Source of the DNA: a virus
IMG/VR virus record: IMGVR_UViG_3300048672_000883
Span: 1 to 39,596 of that record
Direction: 5' to 3' (one strand)
Length of the DNA stretch: 39,596 nucleotides
Shown here: positions 3,165-34,565 of the stretch, one piece after another
How positions within the stretch are numbered: the first letter of the stretch is position 1
Layout of the letters: every line of letters begins with the position of its first letter
Position numbers and translations under genes: made by a program
Notes under the pieces: generated by a model
Told to the model about the DNA's origin: nothing
What the model saw: the letters and a program-made list of their open reading frames with translations, nothing else
The model's database searches: none

Positions 3165-3368
3165 ATGTTGATAGGTAAGTTCTGGGACTCGGTTAATCAA
3201 AAGTACTTATGGGCCGAAGGCCAGGATTTTGAGGAACTAACTCAAACACTGAAAAATGAAATTGCCGACTATGGCGGAAATGATGAAATTGACCCGGCAA
3301 AGATCGAGGTGTATAAGGCTGTCAAAATGAAGGTCGTTGCCACTTACGAAATTCAGGCTGGTGATTGA
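3165..3368 (+). CDS. small hypothetical protein (67 aa)
   Basis: ATG 3165 is preceded by GAAAGGAAAAA. The protein (GKFWDSVNQKYLWAEGQDFEELTQTL...) is acidic and probably globular. I do not recognise it. A strong terminator follows 4 bases after the stop. Confidence 0.6.
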   Translation: MLIGKFWDSVNQKYLWAEGQDFEELTQTLKNEIADYGGNDEIDPAKIEVYKAVKMKVVATYEIQAGD

Positions 3369-3371
3369 TGG

Positions 3372-3403
3372 AAGCTATTAGCCCGAAAGGGCTAATAGCT
3401 TTT
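3372..3403 (+). terminator. intrinsic terminator
   Basis: A 13-bp perfect stem (AAGCTATTAGCCC) with GAAA loop and a short T-run. It ends the leftmost plus-strand gene group. The sequence to 4392 holds repeats and promoters but no gene I can support. Confidence 0.75.
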
Positions 3404-3536
3404 AACTATACCATTATTTTTAGCATCTGCGCCGAAATGCGAATCATTCTCACTTGTATTGTTATTCCCTTACAGTTGCCGTTTTGCATCATTGTATTTT
3501 TCTATGGCGAACAGGAAAGCACTAGCAAAATACAAT

Positions 3537-3565
3537 TTGACAAGCCGTTATTTTTATGTTATAAT
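3537..3565 (+). promoter_or_regulatory. sigma70-type promoter
   Basis: TTGACA, 17-bp spacer, TATAAT: a perfect consensus promoter in the first copy of the duplicated block. Confidence 0.8.
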
Positions 3566-3684
3566 AAATTGTGGCAGCGCCAAAAATTTATGATAAAAAT
3601 GATACTTAGCATTTTGCTGTTTATCGCCGTTTTGCATCATTGTATTTTTCTATAGCAAACAGGAAAGCACTAGCAAAATACAAT

Positions 3685-3713
3685 TGGACAACCCGCCGTT
3701 TTTGTGTTATAAT
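3685..3713 (+). promoter_or_regulatory. sigma70-type promoter (second copy)
   Basis: TGGACA, 17-bp spacer, TATAAT. It corresponds to 3537-3565 in the duplicated block and has a weakened -35 box. Confidence 0.6.
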
Positions 3714-3817
3714 AAATTGTGGCAGCGCCAAAAATTTATGATAAAAATGATACTTAGCAAATCGACCAGCACCGGGCGCTATAAATGCGAATCATTATCA
3801 TGTAGGTTCCGGAAAGT

Positions 3818-4127
3818 GAATGCGAATCATTCGTATTCAAAAACCCAAATGCGAATCATTCGTATTCAAAAACCCAAATGCGAATCATTCGTATTCAAAA
3901 ACCCAAATGCGAATCATTCGTATTCAAGAACCCAAATGCGAATCATTCGTATTCAAGAACCCAAATGCGAATCATTCGTATTCAAGAACCCAAATGCGAA
4001 TCATTCGTATTCAAGAACCCAAATGCGAATCATTCTTATTCAAGAACCCAAATGCGAATCATTCGTATTCAAGAACCCAAATGCGAATCATTCTTATTCA
4101 AGAACCCAAATGCGAATCATTCTTATT
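3818..4127 (+). repeat. 29-bp iteron array
   Basis: Ten full direct copies of a 29-bp unit (core GCGAATCATTCGTATTC) plus a 20-base partial copy run without spacers. The copies differ only at a few positions (AAAAACCC/AAGAACCC, CGTATT/CTTATT). Diverged single copies occur at about 3436 and 3784. Contiguous iterons like this often bind a replication or partition protein; that is inference here. Related AAGTGCAAATTCTT words continue to about 4260. Confidence 0.95.
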
Positions 4128-29070: not shown

Positions 29071-29116
29071 TTTTTGTCTCCCAACCTGCTATAATAGGTA
29101 TATTGGGAGACAAAAA
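29071..29116 (+). promoter_or_regulatory. promoter inside a 14-bp hairpin
   Basis: Arms 29071-29084 (TTTTTGTCTCCCAA) and 29103-29116 enclose TATAAT (29090-29095). The -35 (CTGCTT, 29067-29072) is weak. The right arm reaches the HNH start codon. Confidence 0.65.
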
Positions 29117-29808
29117 TGACTGAAAACGAGATAGTAAAAACTGTACTGATGGCAGCAGGATGGGCACCCGACGATGTGCTAAAGCCTGGTAGATCAAACT
29201 CGCCAGAACTACTTGCCGCACAGTTCATATCTGCTATTATATCAGAAGATACGATGCCTAAAGCAGCAAGACGTCTAGGCATGGGAAAACAGACTCTAAA
29301 TAGAGTAGTGGCTAAGTGGCTAATACCTGTATTCGGTCAGCTACACGGCGGTGGTGAAACCTGGAAGCGCGTATTACTGCATAATGCAGAATTAAAATAC
29401 TGCCCTCACTGTGACCGCATTCTACCCTACACGCAGTTTACTAAATCCGCCCAGAATATTGGTGGTGTTGACAGTATATGTAAATCTTGCAAAAGCAGCA
29501 AAAACGCTACTTACTATCAGGAAAATAAAGACACTTACCACAAGCCCTACATAGACGAGCACAGGGCAGAATATAATGCTAGAAACAGCTACAGGCGCGC
29601 TCGCAAACTAAAAGCAACTCCTAGTTGGGCAGATTTATCAAAAATAAAAGAGGTATATCGAACCTGTCCTCCTGAATGCCACGTAGACCATATTTATCCA
29701 TTAATTAGTGATTGGGTATGTGGTTTACATGTTCATGAAAACTTACAGCACTTATCCGCAGAAGAAAATCTGCGCAAAGGTAATAGAAACATTGCGACCG
29801 TGGCGTAA
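29116..29808 (+). CDS. HNH endonuclease (group 1) ending inside tRNA-Leu
   Basis: 230 aa. HTH-like middle (PKAARRLGMGKQTLNRVVAKW), then a zinc pair CPHC...CKSC at about 95-131 and the HNH core HVDHIYPLISDWVCGLHVHENLQHLSAEENL (quoted in part) near the end. Paralogs are at 30072 and 32943. Its last four codons and stop are the first 15 bases of tRNA-Leu. Free-standing homing enzyme; target site probably nearby. Confidence 0.85.
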   Translation: MTENEIVKTVLMAAGWAPDDVLKPGRSNSPELLAAQFISAIISEDTMPKAARRLGMGKQTLNRVVAKWLIPVFGQLHGGGETWKRVLLHNAELKYCPHCDRILPYTQFTKSAQNIGGVDSICKSCKSSKNATYYQENKDTYHKPYIDEHRAEYNARNSYRRARKLKATPSWADLSKIKEVYRTCPPECHVDHIYPLISDWVCGLHVHENLQHLSAEENLRKGNRNIATVA

Positions 29809-30001: not shown

Positions 30002-30050
30002 GTAGGTCTCAAAATTTAGTCTTGTGATTTTGAGACCTACATGCTATAAT
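30002..30050 (+). promoter_or_regulatory. promoter with 14-bp hairpin
   Basis: Arms GTAGGTCTCAAAAT (30002-30015) and complement (30027-30040). TTGTGA (30022-30027) starts in the loop; TATAAT (30045-30050) follows the right arm, spacer 17. AAAATTTAG precedes the -35 box. Confidence 0.75.
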
Positions 30051-30071
30051 TACACTATAAAAGGTGATATT

Positions 30072-30713
30072 ATGGCATATAAAAAACAAGAAATCATACC
30101 TAGTATTCTAGAAGAGCTAGATGCGGGCCTAGCGTTTGAGTATTACCTCGGTGCGCAGTACGTCAAGGTATACGAAAGTTTCGTATCGGTTATGTCTAGT
30201 CAATCCCCCGCACTTAAAAATGTGTTTGGATATAACAGATATTTATTTCCTAAAATATTAAATACCTTATTCGATAATACTGAATATTTAAACTATAGGG
30301 ATTTATCTAAATATCTATTGCATACAAGAGGCTTTAGGTACTGTGCTAAATGCGACACAGTATATAAGGAAAGCTGTTTTAGACCTAACTCTACTAGGTT
30401 GGACGGACTAAATTCATACTGCAAATATTGTCAGTTAGCGGGTACTAAACTTACTCAAGCTGCTAGACAGGCTAAGTATAAGTCTGTGCAGCTAAACTCT
30501 ATACCGAGTTGGGCAAACATGGAGTATATAGCTAAGGTGTATTCTAATTGCCCGGAGGGGTACCACGTAGACCACATTATCCCTTTACAGGGAACTGAAG
30601 TATGTGGGCTACACGTGGAAAATAATCTTCAGTATCTGCCTGCCTCGGAAAATATATCCAAAGGCAATAAATTAATCGCGGAGTACGTCAGTGGTAGACT
30701 AGCAGGCTCATAA
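30072..30713 (+). CDS. HNH endonuclease (group 1) ending in tRNA anticodon loop
   Basis: 213 aa from ATG 30072 (AAGGTGA upstream). Zinc pair CAKC...CKYC, then PSWANMEYIAKVY and the HNH core YHVDHIIPLQGTEVCGLHVE near the end. Paralog of 29116 and 32943. Its last 12 codons are the 5' half of the next tRNA, and its TAA stop is the TAA of that tRNA's CTCATAA anticodon loop. Confidence 0.85.
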   Translation: MAYKKQEIIPSILEELDAGLAFEYYLGAQYVKVYESFVSVMSSQSPALKNVFGYNRYLFPKILNTLFDNTEYLNYRDLSKYLLHTRGFRYCAKCDTVYKESCFRPNSTRLDGLNSYCKYCQLAGTKLTQAARQAKYKSVQLNSIPSWANMEYIAKVYSNCPEGYHVDHIIPLQGTEVCGLHVENNLQYLPASENISKGNKLIAEYVSGRLAGS

Positions 30714-31803: not shown

Positions 31804-31878
31804 GCCCTTGTAGCTCAGAGGAAGAGCACTCGCCTTGTAAGCGATAGGTCGTCTGTTCGATTCAGACCTGGGGCACCA
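31804..31878 (+). tRNA. tRNA-Thr (anticodon TGT)
   Basis: Acceptor GCCCTTG/CTGGGGC with one T-T mismatch, discriminator A, CCA. Anticodon loop CTTGTAA. Confidence 0.9.
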
Positions 31879-31956
31879 TATTTTAGCATATCCGCGTGTA
31901 CGGGACGCCGGTTAAGACTAGAGATAGCGCACGTTGTAGGGTATGCTAAAATATGG
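31876..31956 (+). repeat. 15-bp inverted repeat starting at tRNA-Thr CCA
   Basis: CCATATTTTAGCATA (31876-31890), beginning with the tRNA's CCA, pairs with 31942-31956 around a 51-base loop. A similar CCATACTAAAA arm starts at the CCA of tRNA-Ser at 34563. Confidence 0.65.
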
Positions 31957-32163
31957 AGCTATAACCAAAGCCACTAGCCACTTAATCGCCTATACATGCG
32001 GAGCAGTTCCGGATACGCCTTCCGCGGGCAGGGTAATGGGGAGCTCAAAGTCGTAAGCAGTAGGCCGCTGCTGGACTTCCTTAAAAGTGGCTTTAGTTAT
32101 GGTTGTATGAAACGATCAGAATCATGCTGTGGAAGCGGCTCTCGGATGCCGCCAAGTCCACCA
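31957..32163 (+). ncRNA. ssrA: candidate tmRNA acceptor piece
   Basis: The 3' end is tRNA-like: 5-bp stem GCGGC/GCCGC with an 8-base loop (32135-32152), then CAAGTCC, A and CCA (32153-32163). CAAGTCC pairs with GGA-(CAA)-CTTG at 32785-32794, just before a tmRNA tag piece, giving a 7-bp stem with a 3-base bulge. The order acceptor - intervening - coding is that of permuted tmRNA genes. The 5' limit and internal pseudoknots are not resolved. Confidence 0.45.
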
Positions 32164-32197
32164 TTAAGTAGTCTTAGAATTAACGTAGGAGTTAATT

Positions 32198-32767
32198 GTG
32201 TCAGAACAAAAACTAGTAGATCAGTTCAAGAGTTACGTACTAGAGGGTAAAACAATAAAAGAGCTCCAACAGTTGTATGGTTGGAGCAGAACAAAGGTAA
32301 CTGAGTTCAAAAAATTACACGGGCTAGTGGGGCTATCACCAAACTCGAAAAAGCTAGACCGCAGTACGGGTACTAAAACCTGTAACGCCTGCTGTCTTGA
32401 GTTACCGCTTAGTAGCTTTTATTCCAACGGTAAAACCTCCGCAGGAGTAGTTAAATATAAGCCTACTTGCATACCATGCGAAAACTCTAGCAGAAAGTCA
32501 AGCTTTGTAGACTTAATAGAGACTTACCTATCTATTAAGGGACAGACATATTCCTGCATTAGGTGCGGGTATACTGGAATATTTGGTTCTCTTGATTTTC
32601 ATCACCGTAATCCGGCGGAAAAGTCCTTTAATATAGGAGCTACTAAGAGTATATCTGAAGAAGCGTTCCTGGAGAGGTTAGTTCCAGAGTTGGATAAGTG
32701 CGATCTACTATGCCCAAACTGCCACAGACAAGAACACTTACTAATGGGCCTGAAAGGTTTCGATTAG
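32198..32767 (+). CDS. HNH endonuclease (group 2) between tmRNA pieces
   Basis: 189 aa from GTG 32198 with TAGGAG upstream. An HTH (KTIKELQQLYGWSRTKVTEF) precedes a zinc pair CNAC...CIPC and an HNH core YSCIRCG...LDFHHRNPAEK...CDLLCPNCHRQEH. It belongs to a different HNH subfamily from the three group-1 enzymes. It fills the segment between the CCA-ended piece and the tag-coding piece. Confidence 0.85.
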   Translation: MSEQKLVDQFKSYVLEGKTIKELQQLYGWSRTKVTEFKKLHGLVGLSPNSKKLDRSTGTKTCNACCLELPLSSFYSNGKTSAGVVKYKPTCIPCENSSRKSSFVDLIETYLSIKGQTYSCIRCGYTGIFGSLDFHHRNPAEKSFNIGATKSISEEAFLERLVPELDKCDLLCPNCHRQEHLLMGLKGFD

Positions 32768-32784
32768 GCTAATAGTATGCGAGT

Positions 32785-32895
32785 GGACAACTTGGCAATG
32801 CAGAAGCCAACAGGGTTGGGGGTTCCCGGCCAGAGACGCATAATAAGTAACTGCAAACGACAGTACATTTGCTCTAGCAGCTTAATGCAGGGCTA
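32785..32895 (+). ncRNA. ssrA: tmRNA tag-coding piece (tag ANDSTFALAA)
   Basis: GCAAACGAC...GCTCTAGCAGCTTAA at 32853-32885 encodes A-N-D-S-T-F-A-L-A-A-stop, the length and ends of beta/gammaproteobacterial tmRNA tags. CATAATAAGTAACT sits before the resume codon. Upstream stems CCAAC/GTTGG and GGG/CCC could form the first pseudoknot. No 3' acceptor half follows; a terminator and an opposing gene do, so a one-piece form is excluded. The usual GGATTCGACGG of the 5' tRNA-like part is not seen. Confidence 0.75.
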
Positions 32896-32905
32896 AGGTT
32901 TCTCC

Positions 32906-32944
32906 GGGTCTGACCTTATTATCAAACCAGACCCTATTCCTTTT
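32906..32944 (+). terminator. hairpin terminator after tag piece
   Basis: GGGTCTG/CAGACCC with a 15-base loop, then TATTCCTTTT. It separates the tmRNA piece from the convergent HNH gene. Confidence 0.65.
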
Positions 32945-33641
32945 ATATGGAGGTTCCGTAGAAAATATCTCCATCAGAAAAGAAATTGCTTTTAGCGATA
33001 TTATCTTTTGCCTCAATGTACTGTAAGTTATGCTCAACGTGTAGTCCGCATACTGAAGATCCTTGTAGAGGTGCCCAGTGGTCTACGTGATAACCCTCCG
33101 GACATTTAGCATATATTTCCTTAATCCTTTCTAAGTCGGCCCAGTTAGGTATTGCTTGTATTTTTGAAGCCCTATACTTTGCAGCTGTGGAGTTGACTTT
33201 ATCTCTATTCTCTCGCTGCCACTTTAGTTTAGTCTTTGCTACCATATCTTTATTTATAGCCCTGTACTCGCGCATACATTCTAAACACCAGCTATCTACG
33301 CCCGACGAAAGCATTGCTTTATTCTTAGAGAATAAAGCAATGTCCTTTATTTCCCCGCAAGAAGGACATTTTTTAAGTCCGTTAAGATTTAGTATATGTA
33401 AGTACCATTCTGTAGACCTAGAAGGTTTTGGTTTCTGATAGAACGTTAGACTAAATGCTTCCCGAACTTTGGTTTGATCGTGCCCCTTGAATAGCTCAAT
33501 AGCTTTTGTATTACCCCCGTCTAGAACAACTCTCTCTATAAGCTGTCTGGCGGTAATTTCCGGACTTTTTATAGTTTTGTTTTTAACCACAAAATCGGGG
33601 TCAACCTCGAGGACTTCTATCGTATTCTCAATTAAATTCAT
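32943..33641 (-). CDS. HNH endonuclease (group 1)
   Basis: 232 aa from ATG 33641; an in-frame TTG at 33665 lies at the predicted transcript start. Zinc pair CPSC...CLEC, PNWADLERIKEIYAKCPEG and the HNH core YHVDHWAPLQGSSVCGLHVE align with 29116 and 30072. It is the only minus-strand gene in this block and carries its own promoter hairpin. Confidence 0.85.
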   Translation of the reverse strand: MNLIENTIEVLEVDPDFVVKNKTIKSPEITARQLIERVVLDGGNTKAIELFKGHDQTKVREAFSLTFYQKPKPSRSTEWYLHILNLNGLKKCPSCGEIKDIALFSKNKAMLSSGVDSWCLECMREYRAINKDMVAKTKLKWQRENRDKVNSTAAKYRASKIQAIPNWADLERIKEIYAKCPEGYHVDHWAPLQGSSVCGLHVEHNLQYIEAKDNIAKSNFFSDGDIFYGTSI

Positions 33642-33651
33642 AGTTCTGTAA

Positions 33652-33697
33652 ACATTAACAAGCAATGATTAATTATACTACCATTGCTTGTTAATGT
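33652..33697 (-). promoter_or_regulatory. promoter inside a 16-bp hairpin, minus strand
   Basis: Perfect 16-base arms at 33652-33667 and 33682-33697. The minus-strand TATAAT (33672-33677) is in the loop; TAGACA lies 17 bases upstream within the outer arm region. Confidence 0.75.
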
Positions 33698-33725
33698 CTA
33701 CGCTAAATTTTATGGGGCCTAAATT

Positions 33726-34331
33726 TTGAATAATAAGCAGAATCCGTGCATTGCTAACCCTAAGCTATCCCAAGCTTTAGCAGGTAGTGAGGCTTCCTCG
33801 CATTTCACTAAATCTAAAGGCAACTTTTACGAGTTTTATCTGAGCGGAGAACTTCTAGAGCCAGAAAGCTATATTGGCTGGTTTGATGTAATTCGTAATG
33901 CAGGTCCACAAGATACTATAAAGATATTCATTAATAGTCCTGGAGGGGACCTTTATACTGCTATTCAGTTCTTGCGCGTCATGGGGGAGACTGAGGCTGA
34001 AATTATTTGCTCGGTTGAGGGTGCTTGCATGAGTGCTGCAACTATGATCTTTCTGCACGCGGACGTACACGAAGTAACGCCTAATTCTGCCTTTATGTTC
34101 CACGACTACTCAAGTGGTGTGTTTGGTAAGGGCGGAGAGCAGTACGACCAAATTCAATTTGAGCGCAAGTGGTCTGAAACATTTTTAAAAGATGTATACG
34201 CTGGATTTCTTAGTGTTCAGGAAATTGAGTCTGTGCTACACAATAAAGACCTGTGGATGACTTCTACAGAGGTTGTATCCAGGCTACAAGCACTTGCAGA
34301 GGCTAGTAGCCTGGAAGTTAAAGAAGAATAA
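33726..34331 (+). CDS. ClpP-like serine protease
   Basis: 201 aa from a TTG at 33726; no upstream ATG keeps the frame. IKIFINSPGGDLYTAIQFLR, VEGACMSAATMIFL (S103 nucleophile), FMFHDYSSG (H126) and NKDLWMTSTEV (D175) match the ClpP fold and triad. Phage ClpP-like proteins often process virion proteins or join host ClpX/A. Which applies here is open. Confidence 0.82.
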   Translation: MNNKQNPCIANPKLSQALAGSEASSHFTKSKGNFYEFYLSGELLEPESYIGWFDVIRNAGPQDTIKIFINSPGGDLYTAIQFLRVMGETEAEIICSVEGACMSAATMIFLHADVHEVTPNSAFMFHDYSSGVFGKGGEQYDQIQFERKWSETFLKDVYAGFLSVQEIESVLHNKDLWMTSTEVVSRLQALAEASSLEVKEE

Positions 34332-34476: not shown

Positions 34477-34565
34477 AGCATGTACAGCAAAGTGGTCTTT
34501 GCAGGTGCCTGGAAAGCACCCGGTTGGTTTTACCGGCCTTGGTTCGACTCCAATACGTGCTGCCA
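34477..34565 (+). tRNA. tRNA-Ser (anticodon GGA)
   Basis: Acceptor AGCATGT/ACGTGCT, discriminator G, CCA. Anticodon stem GGTGC/GCACC with loop CTGGAAA; variable arm CCGGT/ACCGG. The T stem has one mismatch. Confidence 0.85.

Follow-up and report, generated by a model that had tools for sequence, protein, structure and literature searches.

The window, the whole stretch of 39,596 nt that we analysed (IMG/VR virus record IMGVR_UViG_3300048672_000883, positions 1-39,596), likely carries a tailed-phage permuted tmRNA gene with the gene of a homing-type HNH endonuclease, of the kind found at tRNA 5' ends, in its intervening segment. The core of this reading, a two-piece permuted tmRNA in a phage with the HNH gene within the segment predicted to be removed, is supported by Rfam, by the covarying acceptor stems of three other phages and by shuffle controls. 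Permuted tmRNAs in phages are already known. The HNH gene inside the intervening segment is new here, as is the evidence from other phages for interchangeable protein genes in this segment. A preliminary description of the window had proposed both a permuted two-piece tmRNA in a phage and an HNH gene in the normally removed segment. This arrangement stood, but the start of the coding piece had been set 39 nt too far downstream and was moved.

The tmRNA pieces and their neighbourhood

The features of the locus were as follows.

31804-31878, + strand: tRNA-Thr(TGT), the last of the tRNA array upstream of the tmRNA (ARAGORN; Rfam tRNA, 62.3 bits)
31873-31959, + strand: hairpin with 21-nt arms between tRNA-Thr and the acceptor piece (inverted repeat)
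about 32101-32163, + strand: tmRNA acceptor piece (RF04321 full-length alignment; pairing scan)
32102-32106, + strand: P2 3' strand GTTGT, in the acceptor piece
32135-32152, + strand: T-arm with 8-nt loop TCTCGGAT, in the acceptor piece
32153-32159, + strand: acceptor 3' strand CAAGTCC, in the acceptor piece
32160-32163, + strand: ACCA end, closing the acceptor piece
32164-32745, + strand: intervening segment of 582 nt between the CCA and the paired 5' acceptor strand, predicted to be removed in maturation
32164-32197, + strand: leader with Shine-Dalgarno TAGGAG in a TTAAC..GTTAA repeat
32198-32767, + strand: HNH endonuclease ORF, GTG start, 189 aa (ORF list; PHROG_2255 match)
32746 to about 32934, + strand: tmRNA coding piece (RF04321 up to 32885, RF01850 at 32842-32933; inferred 3' end)
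32746-32752, + strand: acceptor 5' strand GGGCCTG, the start of the coding piece
32756-32763, + strand: D-arm motif GGTTTCGA, inside the 3' end of the HNH gene
32787-32791, + strand: P2 5' strand ACAAC, pairing with GTTGT at 32102-32106
32853-32885, + strand: tag frame ANDSTFALAA with TAA stop (sequence; tag alignment to RF04321)
32906-32934, + strand: 3' hairpin GGGTCTG..CAGACCC, matching the structural hairpin of Rfam beta_tmRNA
33726-34331, + strand: ClpP-like protease gene (PF00574, 1.2e-9; PHROG_1827, 1e-57)

The Rfam models for permuted tmRNA are RF04321 and the alpha (RF01849), beta (RF01850) and cyano (RF01851) models. The covariance search, which had been put forward earlier as a check, showed that tmRNA_permuted (RF04321) aligned in full (model positions 1-213 of 213) over 32101-32885, with E = 1.6e-6 and 42.8 bits, just below the gathering cutoff of 47 bits. 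The 582-nt segment probably depresses this score. The beta_tmRNA model matched 32842-32933, and the hairpin at 32906-32934, first taken for a terminator after the tag, aligned with a structural hairpin in that model; it probably belongs to the coding piece. The tag ANDSTFALAA at 32853-32885 was recovered both in the sequence and in the tag alignment to RF04321, with an intact frame, a resume codon and a hydrophobic Ala-Ala end.

The tRNA-like 3' half with its CCA finishing at 32163 and the acceptor strand CAAGTCC were found as first described. The partner of this strand had been placed in GGA(CAA)CTTG at 32785-32794. This pairing was dropped because Rfam and the relatives favour GGGCCTG at 32746-32752, and positions 32787-32791 belong to helix P2. 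The stem GGGCCTG x CAAGTCC has six of seven pairs and needs no bulge, G3.U70 and ACCA are present, and pair 5 is a C x A mismatch (C5 x A68). The 39-nt displacement of the 5' strand explains why the preliminary description assumed a 3-base bulge in the acceptor stem and reported no D-arm consensus; the motif is present as GGTTTCGA.

A search with the HNH protein found three relatives in IMG/VR, namely L122 (3300021440_000035), L123 (3300039106_000514) and L134 (3300007177_000075), with HNH proteins 62%, 58% and 53% identical to that of the window, respectively. All four HNH-tmRNA cases are uncultivated metagenomic contigs. Each relative has an acceptor piece, an HNH-filled segment of 577-586 nt and a tag-bearing coding piece (tags ANDSEFRLAA, ANDEYFAIAA and ANDSEYRLAA), and the tag frame is open in all four phages. 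RF04321 aligned over the full model in L134 with 72.3 bits, above the cutoff, and the alignments in L122 (46.5 bits) and L123 (38.4 bits) stop short of the distant acceptor piece. None of these four loci was called as a tmRNA by ARAGORN. A longest-helix search recovered P2 in the window and L134; in L122 and L123 the helix was masked by other helices or missed. The mean P2 length was 5.5 bp for own pairs and 4.8 bp for swapped pairs. Searches of IMG/VR for the leader element or the HNH-tmRNA junction gave no phage beyond these same contigs, and the DNA of the locus showed no similarity to phage records.

The hairpin at 31873-31959 had a folding energy of -36.9 kcal/mol (z = -6.1). In L134, hairpins at about 2310-2378 and 3210-3300 flank the tmRNA, as judged by eye, and the arms of the latter (ATATTTTAGC..GCTAAAATAT) are similar to the window hairpin. 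Three endonuclease VII-like genes lie in or beside the tRNA array of the window, at 29116-29808, 30024-30713 and 32943-33665 (minus). A long hairpin at 33647-33702 (minus) overlaps the start of an endonuclease VII-like gene and matches several microRNA models, surely by chance. An additional tRNA at 34478-34561 scored 37.3 bits with Rfam and is absent from the ARAGORN list, and Rfam gave no glutamine riboswitch in the window.

A homolog of the ClpP-like protease (61% identity) lies directly downstream of the tmRNA in L134, at 3314-3892; the ClpP-like gene of L122 is elsewhere on its contig. Because the tmRNA tag is of the ClpXP type, the neighbourhood of a phage tmRNA and a ClpP-like gene is suggestive.

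The HNH endonuclease and the intervening segment as a possible gene slot

The HNH ORF at 32198-32767 with its GTG start was confirmed. It fills the intervening segment, and its final 22 nt overlap the mature coding piece. The protein matched the PHROG_2255 HNH endonucleases at 9.7e-28 and the Pfam HNH model at 19.5 bits, slightly under the cutoff of 21.4. The LDFHHRNP and CPNCHRQ motifs and the CxxC pairs are conserved in the four HNH proteins. Substitution estimates were dN 0.35-0.54 and dS 1.6-2.4 (three pairs with an estimable dS; saturated for pairs including the window), by which the gene is under purifying selection among the relatives. The AlphaFold model was of moderate quality (pLDDT 72.8, pTM 0.40) and predicts an N-terminal three-helix part, a central region with the CxxC pairs and, at the end, a beta-beta-alpha part. 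Its top fold match in the PDB was the beta-beta-alpha-Me nuclease Hpy99I, a weak one (E 4.5e-3), and a PDB sequence search with the protein gave no usable match. Only two relatives were found in prokaryote genomes, both of them distant archaeal MAG hits. The leader at 32164-32197 is almost identical in L122 and L123, the only two contigs elsewhere in IMG/VR with this pattern, and the stability of the leader hairpin was not above that of shuffles.

Many distant relatives of the HNH gene are located 5' of a phage tRNA gene in which they terminate, and not every relative overlaps a tRNA. In the tRNA arrays of L126, L127, L128, L131, L180 and L203 the HNH stop codon occupies tRNA positions 8-10, as TAG in all but L180, which has TAA. 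In all four tmRNA cases the stop lies inside the mature tmRNA (positions 5-7, 11-13, 20-22 and 80-82), and the codon phase of G1 is the same in the six tRNA loci and the four tmRNA cases. In a maximum-likelihood tree the four tmRNA HNHs form one clade (100/99) beside the HNHs of T5-like and Vibrio phages. When T5-like phages with the HNH gene (SA001, Elw) and without it (T5, S131, DaisyDussoix) were aligned, the downstream boundary of the presence/absence site fell at the tRNA-Ala 5' end. Homing into the tmRNA is proposed by analogy with tRNA-Ala, as no HNH-less (empty-site) allele of the tmRNA lineage studied here turned up. A search for HNH-less homologs had been suggested in the preliminary description and succeeded in part: in Menderavirus isolates, Marzo among them, there is a related permuted tmRNA whose segment measures ~54 nt and contains no ORF, but these phages are not of the same close lineage, and no close-lineage homolog lacking the HNH gene was found.

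Two observations on individual loci stand apart. The HNH ORFs of L128 and L130, as annotated, also start inside or just past an upstream tRNA. In Stenotrophomonas phage Marzo (L224), an HNH ORF at 353-805 shares 24 nt with tRNA-Pro, immediately ahead of a permuted tmRNA.

The HNH protein is most likely a homing-type nuclease aimed at tRNA-like 5' ends. It would be free-standing and belong to a family whose genes settle at tRNA 5' ends and use tRNA sequence as their final codons and stop; in this case the 5' half of the tmRNA would serve as the "tRNA".

We surveyed the segments of at least 108 phage permuted tmRNAs, covering FALAA-type tags and the four HNH cases. Among the matches listed, the segment was mostly 20-120 nt long, with a median of about 80 nt, and an ORF filled eight of the nine non-HNH segments of at least 174 nt, against about 0.2 expected. 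Again among the matches listed, the cargo ORFs in those eight segments begin 9-23 nt past the CCA, and seven end 1-13 nt before the coding piece; the eighth (L078) extends beyond the coding-piece start and is ambiguous and doubtful. Pfam matched the L102 ORF to DUF2061 (3.5e-20) and the L088 ORF to CxxCxxCC (1e-5), and the other ORFs encode unknown proteins. Small unrelated segment ORFs were seen in L018, L033, L102, L088, L106, L104, L084 and L082, mostly with a Shine-Dalgarno sequence just after the CCA. A 628-nt segment in L074 was rejected, as it shrank to 98 nt once the GGCAGTG T-loop of its clade was allowed.

The HNH gene might itself be passive cargo, with any small gene tolerated in the slot and co-transcribed with the tmRNA, and with a nuclease that served some other purpose and did not home there. 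The unrelated ORFs (DUF2061, CxxCxxCC and unknown) in eight of the nine long segments among the matches listed fit this, as non-nuclease ORFs in the segments of other phages mean that residence there needs no homing. L033 and L102 fit it as well: they are about 90% identical around the locus (89-94%, with an identical 193-nt coding-side stretch) yet have different segment ORFs. However, the HNH ORFs cross the RNase P site in four of four cases, like many relatives that enter tRNAs, whereas seven of the eight cargo ORFs stop short of it, which points to a boundary-targeting nuclease. We regard passive cargo as unlikely.

Integrity of the tmRNA and its proposed maturation

The four acceptor stems were GGGCCUG/CAAGUCC in the window and GGGGCAG/CUGCUCC, GGGUUGG/CCAAUCC and GGGGUAG/CUACUCC in the relatives. 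Pairs 4, 5 and 6 vary on both sides between phages (covariation), and L122, L123 and L134 have seven of seven pairs each. G3.U70 was kept in all 40 distinct phage acceptor stems, and the C x A at pair 5 of the window was the sole mismatch among them; this set was chosen for at least six of seven pairs, so its pairing fraction is not independent evidence and the two-sided changes are the informative part. The 18-nt T-hairpin is identical in the window and L122, including the 8-nt T-loop, which had been listed as a weak point and is real. The T-loop of L123, GGCAGTA, is similar to GGCAGTG, which many other phage tmRNAs have as their loop.

The mismatch, the 8-nt T-loop and the sub-threshold score of the window could also come from a decaying tmRNA, broken by the HNH insertion or by drift, with the tag piece as a relic. 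Decay is hard to reconcile with the identical T-hairpin in L122, the intact tag frame and G3.U70, the complete acceptor stems of the other three phages and the tag frame open in all four, and we consider it improbable. That a tRNA-like fragment and a tag-like frame flank an ordinary HNH gene by chance, as the window's own Rfam score might allow, we judge refuted by the relatives, since four phages share the order and the covarying stems, one of them scores above the cutoff, the full signature (T-arm, CCA, acceptor pairing, D-arm motif and tag) appeared in none of 300 first-order Markov windows, and none of 2000 shuffles of the upstream region produced an acceptor piece matching the fixed coding piece.

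In permuted tmRNAs the intervening segment is removed by RNase P and 3' processing. From this known biology we infer the same removal for the HNH-bearing segment. The precursor RNA would be cut after the CCA (32163) and by RNase P before G1 (32746), and the product would be an alanine-charged two-piece tmRNA with the predicted tag ANDSTFALAA. The segment would tolerate cargo because it is discarded in maturation. The RNase P cut between 32745 and 32746 would fall within codon 183 and strip the stop codon from the HNH mRNA. Maturation would then leave a nonstop HNH mRNA, and hence a trans-translation substrate for the tmRNA itself. The tmRNA would limit HNH expression, and the truncated HNH protein would retain the HNH residues. 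We offer only tentatively the fuller picture of a self-limiting circuit, in which the mature tmRNA rescues and tags its own nonstop HNH message and only unprocessed precursor yields the full-length protein, and, more broadly, of phage permuted tmRNAs whose intervening segment would be an exchangeable gene slot. A stop codon within the RNA also occurs at ordinary tRNAs, so selection for regulation is not required.

Comparison with known systems

In the reading preferred here, a protein gene, probably of a mobile nuclease, inhabits the discarded part of a split tmRNA gene, and the last HNH codons double as tmRNA. This links the phage HNH endonucleases at tRNA 5' ends to tmRNA, and it offers a case, open to direct testing, of a ribosome-rescue RNA whose own maturation would produce a nonstop message for which it could act. 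Swappable genes in phage permuted tmRNA genes are suggested, and tmRNA finders can miss such loci, as ARAGORN did in all four.

Phage genomes have been counted to hold 53 two-piece tmRNAs, and methylophage Melnitz is one described phage case (PMC9004378). The window has the same order of acceptor piece, segment and coding piece, and it shares the CCA, the T-arm, the GGTTTCGA motif, G3.U70 and an AND..ALAA tag. In contrast, its segment is 582 nt long and holds an HNH gene that overlaps the coding piece, against the phage median of about 80 nt among the matches listed.

We found no report of a protein gene in a permuted tmRNA segment in the open-access literature, and the part of the 2025 tmRNA census considered here makes no mention of one (PMC11915505). 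That part describes group I intron forms with LAGLIDADG genes, a single permuted segment that contains a tRNA-Ala gene, and the longest permuted gene, which includes a repetitive element. The intron forms it describes resemble the window in having a homing endonuclease gene within the tmRNA gene and absent from the mature RNA. However, there it lies in a self-splicing group I intron in the T-loop, whereas in the window it lies in the permutation spacer and is HNH, not LAGLIDADG. An Rfam intron search of the window gave no match, and the HNH gene sits after the CCA, outside the T-loop, unlike the group I intron form.

The tRNA-associated HNHs of PHROG_2255, in T5-like phages, Mydovirus and other phages, are a related clade, also lie 5' of a tRNA-like RNA, and have their 3' end and stop within that RNA in the same codon phase. 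They precede ordinary tRNAs, whereas the window HNH lies between two tmRNA halves and carries an additional helical (HTH-like) part at its N-terminus.

For the proposed regulation the nearest likeness is arfA, whose message is shortened inside the ORF to a nonstop mRNA and repressed by tmRNA (PMC10107115). The repression proposed for the HNH gene would be of the same kind. The arfA stop is lost via RNase III or a terminator, whereas in the window it would be lost via the RNase P maturation of the tmRNA.
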